Source of the DNA: Synechococcales cyanobacterium M55_K2018_004
GTDB taxonomy: Bacteria > Cyanobacteriota > Cyanobacteriia > Elainellales > Elainellaceae
Reading direction: 5' to 3'
Length of the DNA: 37,433 nucleotides
Assembly (NCBI GenBank): GCA_015295905.1
Contig: DVEB01000356.1
Span: forward strand, 1-37,433
Shown here: positions 1,231-7,889 of the stretch, piece after piece
Numbering within the stretch: the stretch's first letter is position 1
How the letters are laid out: each line of letters opens with the position of its first letter
Made by a program: the position numbers and the translations under genes
The notes under the pieces: model-generated
What the model saw: only the letters and a program-made list of their open reading frames with translations
Database searches by the model: none
Told to the model about the DNA's origin: nothing

Positions 1231-2013
1231 ATGGGTAACACGTCCTCTACAGTGCCCAGTCCACATCGTCCAGAGATTTTTAAGGGAATTGCCCTTTTTA
1301 CCCCCGGTGGAGACCTGGTGTACTGTATCGATCCTTATAAGCAGGCCCGCTGGCATTTGCACCTGTGTGCTCTGTTGCAGGAACTGCTGCATCTGTCAGA
1401 ACCGCCTCACTTTTTGGTGCCCTGCTTTTCGGCTACCATCGATCGCTGGGTTGACCCCAAGACTCAGCAAATTCGGACTGCCGCAGAAGCCTGCCCCCAA
1501 GTGTTGCGCTACCAGGCATTGTTGAACGCGGTGTTTGACACAGGCGATTTGCACTGGAAGGCGATCGCGCCCTCACCTGGCAACTGCGATTTGTTAGTAC
1601 TTTCCACCTACCAGCAGCAATTTCCCCAACTGTGGGAGAACCATGACCTGATTGTCCGGTTTGACCAGACGGAGGCGGCAAATCGAACCAATCTATTAGA
1701 GCAGAGTGAACAATCGCCGCGATCGCCCCAACCCCAGGGCTACGTCCTGCGGCTCTACGTCTCTGGCATCACCAGCGGCACCGAGCAAATTTTGCAAAAC
1801 CTCCATCAATTGTTAGAGGAATCGCTCCAGCAGCCCTACACCCTCAAGGTCATCGATGTGCATAAGAACCCAGAGCAGGCTGAGGCAGATCAGGTCTCTG
1901 CCACACCCACCCTCGTCAAGGTCTATCCGCTACCCGTGCGGCGGATGGCTGGGGATTTGAACAATGGGGATCGGCTGTTGCAGATGCTGAGGACAGAGTC
2001 AACTGCAAGATAG
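1231..2013 (+). CDS. KaiB-like domain protein with long N-terminal extension
   Basis: A 260-aa protein. Residues about 170-255 form a KaiB/SasA-sensor type thioredoxin-like domain: it starts YVLRLYVSGIT and contains the signature ATPTLVKVYPLPVRRMAGDL, close to the family's ATPTL...P.PVR...GDL motif. True KaiB is only about 100 aa, so this is not the core clock KaiB. Residues 1-165 are an unrecognised globular region joined by a Gln/Ser/Pro linker (about 155-168). Starts ATG at 1231, 131 nt after pilT, and is convergent with the sbcC-like gene. By analogy it could bind KaiC or compete with KaiB or SasA; that is inference only. Confidence 0.8.
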   Translation: MGNTSSTVPSPHRPEIFKGIALFTPGGDLVYCIDPYKQARWHLHLCALLQELLHLSEPPHFLVPCFSATIDRWVDPKTQQIRTAAEACPQVLRYQALLNAVFDTGDLHWKAIAPSPGNCDLLVLSTYQQQFPQLWENHDLIVRFDQTEAANRTNLLEQSEQSPRSPQPQGYVLRLYVSGITSGTEQILQNLHQLLEESLQQPYTLKVIDVHKNPEQAEADQVSATPTLVKVYPLPVRRMAGDLNNGDRLLQMLRTESTAR

Positions 2014-4880: not shown

Positions 4881-6800
4881 TTAATAATCTTCCCGAAAAT
4901 AGGGGTTTCCGCAAAGCTCCGCTTGTAAACGAGCCTCCGCTATCAAGATGGGATCCCCAGAGTCAAGATAGGCTTGGAGGCGCTGCTGCTGTTTCTGCCG
5001 GTGGATTTGATAGCGCTGCTGCTGTCTTGCAGCGTGAGTCAGGTCGTATCGTCTGCGGTTCTCCTCGCGGTGCAGCCGGGAATTGGGCAGCGAGGACGGG
5101 AGAAATTGGGCAAGGTAACGCGAGACTGCGCCCGGTTGGGCCATTGTCGACATGCTCAACCGTAGTGGCGGTTGAGCATAAAGTGACTTTTGAGTATCAA
5201 TGGGGGTTGCAATTGGAGACAAATCCGTTAAGGAGGCGATCGCCCCATGCACAGCATCCTTCAACCCTGAAGGATGCACAACATAAGGATGCACAACATT
5301 ACGACCTAGCTGTTGATTCATCACTAGCAGGCAATCTCGATCTCCCTTGTATGTCAAGCCATTACGACCTGTGAGAGGAAATAAGCTTGTACAACTGGAC
5401 TGGGTTGATGCGCCGCTAGCGCAATTAACCCAGTCGTTGTCATCTGAGCTAAGGGGTTCTAGGGGGTTTTCCACAGGTTGCTGCTGTTGTGGAAAATCCA
5501 TCGACTTTTCCACAACAGAATGTTTTAAGGTTTCTGAAGAGGCTTCCAACGCAGCTGAAGGTTGTTCATTATCTGGACTGATCAGGTATTCAGGGTGCCA
5601 TAGCTCTCGATGACGGTAGAGCGTACTTCCACCAATTCCAAGTTTGGTCAAGGCTTTAAATCGAGCCGTTGCCGTTGCCGGTAAACTTTCTGTATTCAGA
5701 AGTGTGGCGATCGCCTGTTGAATCTTTTCCCTAGCTGTTTGTTGTTGCCGTTGATTCCACGTCGATGATCGAACTTTCACCGCCTCTATTTCAGAGGATG
5801 ACTGGAGACTCTGGCCAACGGTGTAAGGGAAATAGCGGCTCTGTTCCACACAGCGAGCCCACTCCTGCGCTCGCTTTTCAAGTTCGTGTTGATGGTTGCA
5901 CCAGTCAGCATATCCAGGTAGCGATCGCGCCACGCGCACAATTTCATCGACTAAAGCCTGACCCACTAGCGGTGCACCCCCCGTCAGGACATGATGAAAC
6001 ACGTAGGTACGCAAAGCAATCCGACCCAGTAAACGATTAGTCTGACCACTCCCCGTCCAACCCATTTCAATCTCAGCATTTAAGTCATGCAAAAACTTAT
6101 CTGCCTTCCCAGAAACAAGCCGAATCTTCTGGTTCGCTTGCTTGAGCGTGCGTTGAAAGCTATTGGAGTGAATTTCATTACGAGCTTGCGTCTGATACCA
6201 GCGTGTTACGAAGTGGGGGCGATCACTCCAAATCGTTTCCCAATTTTCGTTGAGGAGGTAAGAACCGCTCTGAAGCGGCAATCGATGGGCATTAAATAGA
6301 CTCTGCTTCCCGGCTGGAGAAAACGGCTTTGGATTGGGGAACACCTCAAGCTGACCTGGCTTCACCACAAAGCCTGCACGTTCCAGCAGAAATGTAACAA
6401 CAACCGCTAACTCCCAACTTTTTTGAGCTTGCTCAAAAGGAAAATACAAATGAATTCCACCGCTATAGGAACTTGTACAAGCGAGGTAGGACACCAAACC
6501 AATTGGTTCTAGGGCGGCGCAAATTCGATGGACAGCAAAAGCATCGCGTTGGGGATGATAGACGCTGCCTGCATCAATATCGAGAAGACAATACTGAGTC
6601 TGAGCACCAAAGCGAACTCCGTAAAGATGCTCTCCTGCCTGAATGAGGCGATCAGACAAGGGATAACGACGCTCAGTCTGCCAGTTGGGTCTTTCACCAG
6701 GATCGGGATGCTTGGCGTAAATAAAGTCATAGCGATGGGGAAAGAGGACAAGAAAAGAATCCTCTTCCTGCACATAGGCAAAGTTGGTCGTGGCAGTCAC
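4881..6800 (-). CDS. AEP-like primase / Rep-like protein with HTH-like segment
   Basis: A 639-aa protein not identified to a named family. The N-terminal 160 residues show a pattern like archaeo-eukaryotic primases: LLDIDAG (D74, D76), then SGGIHLYF (S113-F120, His117), then LEVFPNPKPF (151-160). This resembles the DxD, GxH and FP motifs of AEP primases in plasmid and conflict systems. Residues about 375-403 (FKALTKLGIGGSTLYRHRELWHP) look like a helix-turn-helix. The tail is Gln-rich. It starts with GTG; an AGGAGG lies about 15 nt upstream. Its 5' side faces a repeat-rich non-coding region and its 3' end lies 86 nt from sbcC on the same strand. A plasmid- or element-type replication initiator is the best guess; catalysis is unproven. 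Confidence 0.6.
   Translation of the reverse strand: MTATTNFAYVQEEDSFLVLFPHRYDFIYAKHPDPGERPNWQTERRYPLSDRLIQAGEHLYGVRFGAQTQYCLLDIDAGSVYHPQRDAFAVHRICAALEPIGLVSYLACTSSYSGGIHLYFPFEQAQKSWELAVVVTFLLERAGFVVKPGQLEVFPNPKPFSPAGKQSLFNAHRLPLQSGSYLLNENWETIWSDRPHFVTRWYQTQARNEIHSNSFQRTLKQANQKIRLVSGKADKFLHDLNAEIEMGWTGSGQTNRLLGRIALRTYVFHHVLTGGAPLVGQALVDEIVRVARSLPGYADWCNHQHELEKRAQEWARCVEQSRYFPYTVGQSLQSSSEIEAVKVRSSTWNQRQQQTAREKIQQAIATLLNTESLPATATARFKALTKLGIGGSTLYRHRELWHPEYLISPDNEQPSAALEASSETLKHSVVEKSMDFPQQQQPVENPLEPLSSDDNDWVNCASGASTQSSCTSLFPLTGRNGLTYKGDRDCLLVMNQQLGRNVVHPYVVHPSGLKDAVHGAIASLTDLSPIATPIDTQKSLYAQPPLRLSMSTMAQPGAVSRYLAQFLPSSLPNSRLHREENRRRYDLTHAARQQQRYQIHRQKQQQRLQAYLDSGDPILIAEARLQAELCGNPYFREDY
5270..5299 (+). 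repeat. 15-bp in-frame tandem repeat inside the AEP-like gene
   Basis: AAGGATGCACAACAT occurs twice in direct succession (5270-5284, 5285-5299), encoding VVHPY/VVHPS on the minus strand. Just before it, GCATCCTTC (5256-5264) pairs with GAAGGATGC, giving a small hairpin. The unit is a multiple of three, so copy-number changes would not shift the frame. Confidence 0.85.
5467..5514. promoter_or_regulatory. Cluster of three DnaA-box-like sites
   Basis: TTTTCCACA at 5467-5475, the inverted copy TGTGGAAAA at 5488-5496, and TTTTCCACA at 5506-5514: three perfect matches to the cyanobacterial DnaA-box form within 48 bp. They lie inside the AEP-like gene, where two are read as Val-Glu-Lys/Asn codons, so coding constraint could explain part of the match. 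The mixed orientation and close packing beside a Rep-like gene make an origin role plausible but unproven. Confidence 0.45.
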
Positions 6801-6877
6801 CGTAGCGATGCCACACCTCCTTTGTCGTTGCAGTTCCCAAAGCTCAACACGCGTCAGTCCAGATTAAGCCGGAGTTA

Positions 6878-7556
6878 TTGTCTCAGGCCTACGGAAACGG
6901 CTTTGGGAAAAGGATCTTTCTTGATCTGATCAGCGTGTCTCACAAGACTGAGGGACAGTCTAGACAAGCATTTCTCAGGTTGTTGGTGCGTTGATCCGGT
7001 TAGATCAGTTAACCGATCCAGAGGCAAAGTCACCAGAGGTGGAACATTTTGTCTGATGCTACAATCCAGATGAACTGAAACACTGAGCACGTTTTTGCAA
7101 AAAAATTGGCATGAGACAAACGTTTGCAGTGGTAAGCAGGCTTGTCTGATGCCAAAATTTTGTCCACAACATAGATCTGAAACGCTTGATAGACAAAGCC
7201 TTGAGCGATCGCCCCCAATCTTCCTACCACGCTAGACAAGTGCGCCAATCCGGAGTCAGTTGTCTCACCAGAAAGACAAGCTTGTCTTTCTGATCTCAGT
7301 CAACCACCACCGACACATCAGCGATAAATCCCAGCTTCAAGACGGCAGAAGTGGGTCGAGTCCCAGGAGAAAGTGGTTGGATGCGGAGGGAACTGTCTTA
7401 ACCCTCAGATAAATTTCTCTACGGGTAAAGTCTCTAAAGAGACTGAGGCAAGTGATGGCAACCGGAGCAACTGACCTCACTTGAAATGGCTCAAGCCTAA
7501 GTAAATCGAGCCTTTTAAGTAATTGAATGAGACAATGAGACAACTGAATGAGACAG
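6878..7556. repeat. Iteron-like array of TGAGACAA/TTGTCTCA motifs in about 1.1 kb of non-coding DNA
   Basis: The 6801-7889 interval has no convincing gene. It contains the octamer TTGTCTCA or its complement TGAGACAA at 6878, 7112, 7260, 7528 and 7536. The core AGACAA/TTGTCT also occurs at 6962, 7049, 7142, 7191, 7234, 7274 and 7282, making 12 in all. TTGTCTGATGC is repeated exactly at 7049 and 7142. TGAATGAGACA recurs with a 21-bp period at 7524 and 7545. By chance a given octamer is expected about 0.02 times in this length. The array flanks the start of the AEP-like gene, as iterons flank plasmid rep genes; an operator array is the alternative. Confidence 0.7.
7271..7290. promoter_or_regulatory. 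Perfect 20-bp palindrome within the iteron-like array
   Basis: GAAAGACAAGCTTGTCTTTC is a perfect palindrome made of two back-to-back copies of the AGACAA core. It is 4 nt from a TTGTCTCA copy at 7260-7267. It has the form of a site for a dimeric DNA-binding protein. Confidence 0.7.
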
Positions 7557-7889
7557 CAACTTGGGGTTTCAAGAGGGAAACGTCGAAGGCCAGCCAACTC
7601 TCGTGTCACGTCGTTGCGATGACTCAAATGATGACTAGAAGCGGCAAAGTCACGACAACAGGCTGGCCGATTGCCCTAAAAGTTCACTGCGAACACTGTG
7701 CTGATTTCCCCAAGAGAGTATAAATTAGAGCAGGAGTTTTTGAGTGCGAACCACCCGGATGATGGGATCCTAATCCTGGCTCTCCGGTTTTGAGTCGTGG
7801 TTCTTTGGGGCGCGCTCAAAGGCTGCCACGCTTGCTTTCGTGCCCTTGAAAAGGCATGGTTATCGCGCACACTCATGGAGATAAAGAGA

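Follow-up and report, generated by a model that had tools for sequence, protein, structure and literature searches.

The stretch analysed here (the window) is contig C198 of a draft cyanobacterial genome (G000, 5.0 Mb in 362 contigs), is 37,433 bases long, and carries a gene for an archaeo-eukaryotic primase (AEP) with an array of short, iteron-like repeats directly upstream. We think it probable, from the sequence comparisons below, that this chromosomal locus, which lies between sbcC and CP12, is part of a plasmid-derived replicon that was split and has been retained. The window holds the array and AEP half only of the replicon module; a cognate second gene, P2, lies on another contig. The preliminary description of the window had proposed the AEP as a Rep protein facing its own array. 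The AEP fold and the plasmid-type module stand, but the AEP is probably not the sole reader of the repeat TGAGACAA, and the P2 that would read it is elsewhere in the genome.

The AEP gene (4881..6800, minus strand) is an uninterrupted open reading frame (ORF) of 639 amino acids with a GTG start. The DxD, GxH and LEVFP motifs read earlier from the letters, along with a predicted helix-turn-helix (HTH), all lie within this intact frame, and the motif residues were invariant in 40 homologues: D74 and D76 of motif I (DID, residues 74-76; 6573..6581, minus strand), S110, S111, G115 and H117 of the motif II region (SSYSGGIH, residues 110-117; 6450..6473, minus strand), and E152, F154 and P155 of the motif III region (LEVFP, residues 151-155; 6336..6350, minus strand). 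R173 was likewise invariant. Against the motifs of the AEP superfamily, LLDID matches motif I (hhhDhD/E), GGIH matches motif II (sxH), and E152 in LEVFP, which aligns with motif III of the CRISPR-associated Prim-Pol (CAPP), matches the acidic residue of motif III. The window AEP is only ~60% identical to its relatives, yet every catalytic residue is intact. The HTH is predicted at residues 377-397 (LGIGGSTLYRHREL; 5610..5672, minus strand) from AlphaFold2 helices with a predicted local distance difference test score (pLDDT) of 74-89, and a C-terminal motif, LDSGDPILIAEA (residues 612-623; 4932..4967, minus strand), which lies past a long variable linker, recurs in many of the aligned homologues.

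Pfam gave no match to the window AEP, and NCBIfam gave only a sub-threshold hint of a CRISPR-associated Prim-Pol. The AEP family profile found PDB sequences weakly (LigD polymerase, E 0.19; CAPP Prim-Pol, E 0.42), with a CAPP alignment that covers all three motifs. The preliminary description had proposed comparing a predicted structure with AEP primases, and the best matches were indeed CAPP Prim-Pol and the LigD polymerase. Using an AlphaFold2 model built from 4 sequences (mean pLDDT 59.5, core blocks 73-94), Foldseek placed CAPP Prim-Pol at ranks 1-6 (best 4e-4) and LigD polymerase at ranks 7-9; VIA-align Z scores were 10.6 for CAPP, 8.1 for LigD, 6.6 for Prim-PolC and 5.7 for human primase, with unrelated rows near Z 5. 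The C-terminal half folded alone gave a poor model. Sequence and modelled fold agree that the window protein is an AEP. It has the AEP fold in common with CAPP (PDB 7nqd) and the LigD polymerase domain (2iru), and in CAPP the motifs DxD, G-x-H and E-x-F-P follow one another in the same order. Identity to these proteins is ~12-24%, however, and the window AEP lacks accompanying CRISPR genes or a ligase, carries an extra helical region, HTH and variable C-terminal tail, and belongs to a plasmid-associated family.

The iteron-like array (6878..7555) contains 12 AGACAA cores, exactly the number first reported, all within 6878-7543 and on both strands; five of them are in the form TGAGACAA (6878-, 7112+, 7260-, 7528+ and 7536+). 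Only 0.87 cores would be expected in 6801-7570, the maximum in 5000 dinucleotide shuffles was 6, and the density in the remainder of the window is 0.41 per kb. A repeat array beside a replication gene, as looked for in an iteron-type replicon, is thus present above chance. The perfect palindrome and the 21-bp spaced direct repeats of the preliminary description were also recovered. The palindrome, AGACAAGCTTGTCT, is at 7274..7287 and comprises two inverted cores, while the direct repeats GAATGAGACA begin at 7525 and 7546, a spacing of 21 bp, in a segment (7525..7555, plus strand) that includes the doublet TGAGACAATGAGACAA, unique in the genome. The variant TGAGACAG is found at 7549, and the window copy of the tandem TGAGACAATGAGACA is the sole exact copy genome-wide.

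The plasmid-type rep layout suggested for the locus is borne out by AEP homologues on 66 cyanobacterial plasmid records (tblastn) and by arrays upstream of the AEP in relatives; neither a fold unrelated to AEP primases nor a consistent lack of arrays among homologues was found. An over-represented 8-mer with a score >8 was present upstream of the AEP in 29/78 loci, compared with 1/78 downstream. The repeats fall into classes, namely TGAGACAA (A), CGCCGGAGTTACAG (B), CGCCGGAGTGATAG (C), GTTGACAA (D), GAGTACAA (E), GATTACA (F), GTAAACA (G), GGTTACA (H), TATGACA (I) and TACTACA (J). A 14-column motif finder run on each upstream region was good for strong arrays and returned noise for weak ones, and core counting was used instead. 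Classes B and C have near-identical spacing (gaps near 34/25/32/26/73/26/32/26/24) with different core letters, and such conserved-geometry arrays comprise 9-16 sites over 0.6-1 kb. Several loci, mostly from other taxonomic families or small plasmids, were without a clear array. A second repeat, TCTAGA/ATTCTAGA, often stands beside TTGACAA iterons upstream of the AEP, in class D loci (such as L099 and L106) and also in L011.

Clustering of neighbouring genes placed the array of relatives between the AEP gene and a second gene, P1 or P2. P1 encodes ~360-400 amino acids, is 74-84% identical across genera, is oriented divergently to the AEP gene across the array and adjoins 24 arrays, mainly of classes B and C. 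P2 encodes ~490-730 amino acids with a C-terminal XRE-type HTH and was found at 22 loci, with the remaining classes. P1 had no match in Pfam, NCBIfam or the PDB, and a defence-system library had no match for either P1 or the AEP. The P1 of G000 itself (L009:11925-13136:+, contig C302), like that of 23 further loci, is conserved far better than the adjoining AEP.

The iteron class tracks P1/P2 without exception. Class changes numbered 7 on the P2 tree and 1 on the P1 tree, the minimum in each case; when the same loci were placed on AEP trees, the counts were 10 (P2 set) and 3 (P1 set), values inside the shuffled range. Because iteron class follows P1/P2 phylogeny and not AEP phylogeny, the likely reader of the iterons is P1/P2, and the AEP would serve as an exchangeable primase; the window AEP probably does not read TGAGACAA, or does not do so alone. 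An alternative that we regard as doubtful is that the AEP is a complete initiator, whose own HTH binds the iterons and which primes there in the manner of ColE2 Rep, with P1/P2 acting only as copy-number or transcription regulators on the same sites. ColE2 Rep and RepE/RepS do join an AEP to an HTH with no need of a helicase (PMC5862659). Arrays also always adjoin the AEP, and in the split genomes described below the array stays with the AEP and not with P2. The AEP is, in addition, the sole recognisable replication gene on plasmid3 of L. boryana (complete, circular, 13,170 bp), for which the annotation otherwise lists transposases, parAB and one hypothetical gene, with no further large ORF. 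Apart from the phylogenies, this alternative has to contend with AEP plasmids that have no clear array and with an HTH that is near-invariant across very different iteron classes. No specificity code was found in the AEP HTH. With regard to the origin-binding C-terminal HTH of ColE2 Rep and RepE/RepS, an HTH is predicted in the window protein, and it does not vary with iteron class.

The likeness to ColE2 Rep and RepE/RepS (AEP, PriCT-1 and HTH; PMC5862659) is a downstream helical part with an HTH in a plasmid-encoded protein that has no helicase domain. The window AEP differs in having no PriCT-1 match in Pfam, the region between AEP and HTH being poorly modelled, and its family differs in being accompanied by iteron arrays and by a second, class-determining gene.

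Among automatically classed loci, pairs within one genome never had an iteron class in common (0/31 versus 4.4 expected, P=0.004), although same-genome paralogues often come from different AEP clades and the class shuffle is not fully a phylogenetic control. The absence of a common class fits the prediction of incompatibility, and coexisting replicons with different iterons are what an iteron-type system should display. In G000 itself, the window array is of class A, and that of contig C302 (L009), which adjoins P1, is of class B. The same data bear on the proposal that the array is the promoter-operator of divergent or tandem genes and not an origin. XRE-type HTH proteins are often repressors, the array directly precedes the AEP start, and in relatives it lies between two genes. 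However, 9-16 sites spread over 0.6-1 kb, in a geometry conserved between classes B and C, go far beyond the needs of an operator, and the avoidance of a common class within one cell fits incompatibility, so that we consider a function as operator alone improbable.

The A-type P2 of G000 is intact (683 amino acids) and is encoded on contig C4 (L141:7992-10043:-), where no array adjoins it. Its neighbours, from a reading of their translations, are a ribonucleotide reductase, a CHASE2 cyclase and a MATE-like transporter, and the contig is chromosome-like. Since P2 lies among chromosomal genes on C4, the array and AEP are unlinked from the putative initiator in G000; a search of the whole 37-kb window found neither P1 nor P2. 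Where relatives have P1 or P2 linked to the array, as in an iteron-type replicon with its initiator gene, the window array is linked only to the AEP, which might itself bind. A second, more distant P2 in G000 (C80; L142:8649-10379:-) adjoins respiratory genes and has a ferredoxin-like, cysteine-rich start.

This separation is found in five genomes (G000, G003, G025, G026 and G029), in each of which the A-type P2 is away from the AEP with no array beside it; the distance is 31 kb in G003, ~1 Mb in G025 and ~3 Mb in G029. In G004, G007, G015 and G016 the A-type P2 adjoins the array, and on Kovacikia pA P2 and AEP are 37 kb apart. The P2 frames of G004 (L102) and Kovacikia pA (L200) are apparently broken near residues 550-578, by frameshift error or decay. 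A-type P2 proteins are 64-78% identical. A-class AEP and A-type P2 occur together in 9 genomes and each alone in 1 (Fisher 1e-6), a count in which class A was partly assigned by eye (>= 2 TGAGACAA, that is, at least two copies); with automatic classes only, co-occurrence is 5/6 versus 5/30 (hypergeometric 0.0035, calculated by hand). As a held-out test, plasmids were searched with the C4 P2. On plasmid1 of Leptolyngbya NIES-3755, a P2 (65% identical) is separated by 1,047 bp from an AEP that is 60% identical to the window AEP, and those 1,047 bp contain 16 AGACAA cores, 8 of them as TGAGACAA. This is the pairing of gene and TGAGACAA array on a cyanobacterial plasmid that the preliminary description had proposed to look for, and by these similarities the P2-array-AEP arrangement represents the window module in intact form.

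In the window, sbcC lies 45 bp downstream of the AEP gene, and past the array are CP12 and then AbrB, DUF1824, an ABC transporter and PNPase. Core genes are present on both flanks, and a reading of the contig as a plasmid was rejected on that ground. That it is nevertheless a plasmid or an assembly chimera, with the locus not chromosomal, might be argued from the draft state of the assembly (362 contigs) and from the sbcC-rep-CP12 order, which is found in no relative; with sbcC 45 bp away on one side, CP12, DUF1824 and PNPase on the other, and two AEP copies in each of G025 and G029 on Mb-scale contigs that also carry dnaA and sbcC, we think it very improbable. An sbcC-rep operon, or a fixed sbcC-rep-CP12 site, was absent from every relative examined: in the 14-16 kb fetched around sbcC of relatives, neither rep nor CP12 was present. 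As the preliminary description had stated for integrase, partition genes and att sites, no integrase, par gene, transfer RNA or att-like repeat was seen near the window AEP and array.

These observations could also be taken to mean that the locus is a dead relic, an integrated plasmid fragment that is inactive in replication and drifting to loss. In line with a relic, the window is without par genes, integrase or linked P2, its insertion site is not common to relatives in the segments fetched around sbcC, and the array has nearly vanished in G029, another split case. A relic would not be expected to keep a 639-residue ORF with all catalytic residues at only ~60% identity to relatives, or 12 sites, where linked plasmid replicons have 3-16, nor does it account for an intact cognate P2 elsewhere and a split state that recurs in several genera. 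The intact ORF and active-site residues, the size of the array, the intact P2 and the recurrence of the split argue for retention, and we judge a relic rather unlikely. A split and retained replicon is ahead of a relic, but not far ahead.

Several results weigh against a split and retained replicon. No par gene or P2 is linked to the window locus, there is no common insertion site with relatives, and the array of G029 (split) is weak, with 2 TGAGACAA. The AEP model, resting on 4 sequences at a mean pLDDT of 59.5, has a poorly modelled middle region. The P1 and P2 profiles had no detectable similarity to F RepE (hhalign). Plasmid3 of L. boryana and certain Nostocales plasmids have an AEP, and in these no P1/P2 and no clear iterons were found; because some AEP plasmids show neither, a P1/P2 partner is not universal. 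The distances of AEP and P2 are mutually correlated (rho 0.68, linked pairs included), while their correlations with sbcC distances (rho 0.26 and 0.33) are not significant; since neither clearly follows this chromosomal gene, the distances do not establish long vertical residence. The GC skew of G029 (40 samples) had no usable signal, with no origin signal at either AEP.

The comparisons suggest a mechanism in which the partner DNA-binding initiator (P2 here, P1 in other replicons) would bind the iteron array, as its covariation with iteron class suggests, and would then melt or mark the origin and recruit the AEP encoded beside the array. The AEP, through the DID/GxH/ExFP active site whose conservation and fold are described above, would lay the first primers, and the host replisome would extend them, the module being without a helicase gene. 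Iteron class may then set incompatibility, in keeping with the observation that replicons within a cell differ in their iterons. In the split form, the replicon may have been domesticated as a trans-acting, two-locus system, array and AEP in one place and P2 in another, with both kept in several genera, that serves the chromosome (as an extra origin, in replication restart or in copy control) or P2-type plasmids in trans, a proposal that we offer tentatively. Loss of DnaA as a reason to keep a plasmid origin was rejected, since DnaA was present in 27/27 good-quality genomes.

Such a mechanism would resemble the division of labour of IncQ plasmids, or that of ColE2 Rep if the AEP binds alone. 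RepC is the iteron binder of RSF1010 (IncQ). The RepB' protein of that plasmid is an AEP primase (PMC5862659), and if our model is right the same division, between an iteron binder and a separate AEP primase, would apply here. The module differs from RSF1010 in lacking a RepA-type helicase gene, RepB' (3h20) was a weak Foldseek match (E 0.017), and the likeness of P1/P2 to RepC is in proposed role only. Iteron plasmids of the F/RepE (Rep_3) type have many short repeats beside a replication gene and class-specific coexistence, as does the AEP family, but the P1 and P2 profiles had no detectable similarity to F RepE, and DnaA boxes were not enriched in the AEP arrays (1 upstream, 2 downstream).

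The AEP family is widespread. Within the taxonomic family to which the window genome belongs, 32/36 genomes have it, at 1-7 copies each, and 'replication-related protein' is the existing annotation of some members. pSYSG of Synechocystis PCC 6803 (L005) has two tandem, diverged AEP paralogues. No Rep is assigned to pSYSG in the CyRepX study, which describes CyRepA1 of pSYSA as the sole Rep known until then for the large 6803 plasmids and adds assignments for pSYSX alone (PMC10899382). CyRepX1/2 (Slr6031/Slr6090) and CyRepA1/A2 likewise act in the replication of cyanobacterial plasmids, a single plasmid often carrying several such proteins, and have homologues on chromosomes (PMC10899382), but CyRepX is a 1121-amino acid, helicase-like protein (DEXDc/HELICc) and CyRepA combines DUF3854 with DEXDc, and neither is described as an AEP. 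Membership in either family was considered and rejected: CyRepX1 is a different, 1121-amino acid protein and pSYSX was not among the matches listed (60 of the 66 plasmid records), and the window AEP has no Pfam domain where CyRepA has DUF3854 and DEXDc (definition in PMC10079941). A phage origin was also rejected, as the AEP had no match among 50,697 phage records and one match in IMG/VR. At L115:5400-5770, on an IMG/VR contig classed as viral, several long direct repeats with CAAACTAAACAACTTACTGGGTCA precede an AEP homologue. Searches of the open-access literature found no description of the AEP/P1/P2 family, and its novelty is thus provisional.

Two observations concern other proteins. In 13/40 AEP members, including those of L112 and L115 and not that of the window, a stretch of ~70 C-terminal residues matched the slr1353 family (NF058667; best 6e-16) at its end, hinting at a module in common with a chromosomal protein. 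In the window, 1231-2013(+) encodes a 260-amino acid protein with a C-terminal KaiB domain (residues 174-254); its N-terminal part is unassigned.

Most large cyanobacterial plasmids have no known replication protein, and the AEP family is a candidate for that role on pSYSG and dozens of others. For vector building, the iteron classes offer a ready set whose members should be compatible with one another, under the testable rule offered here that P1/P2 sets the iteron and the AEP can be exchanged. With the split form found in the chromosome, one can ask whether a chromosome can retain a plasmid origin.

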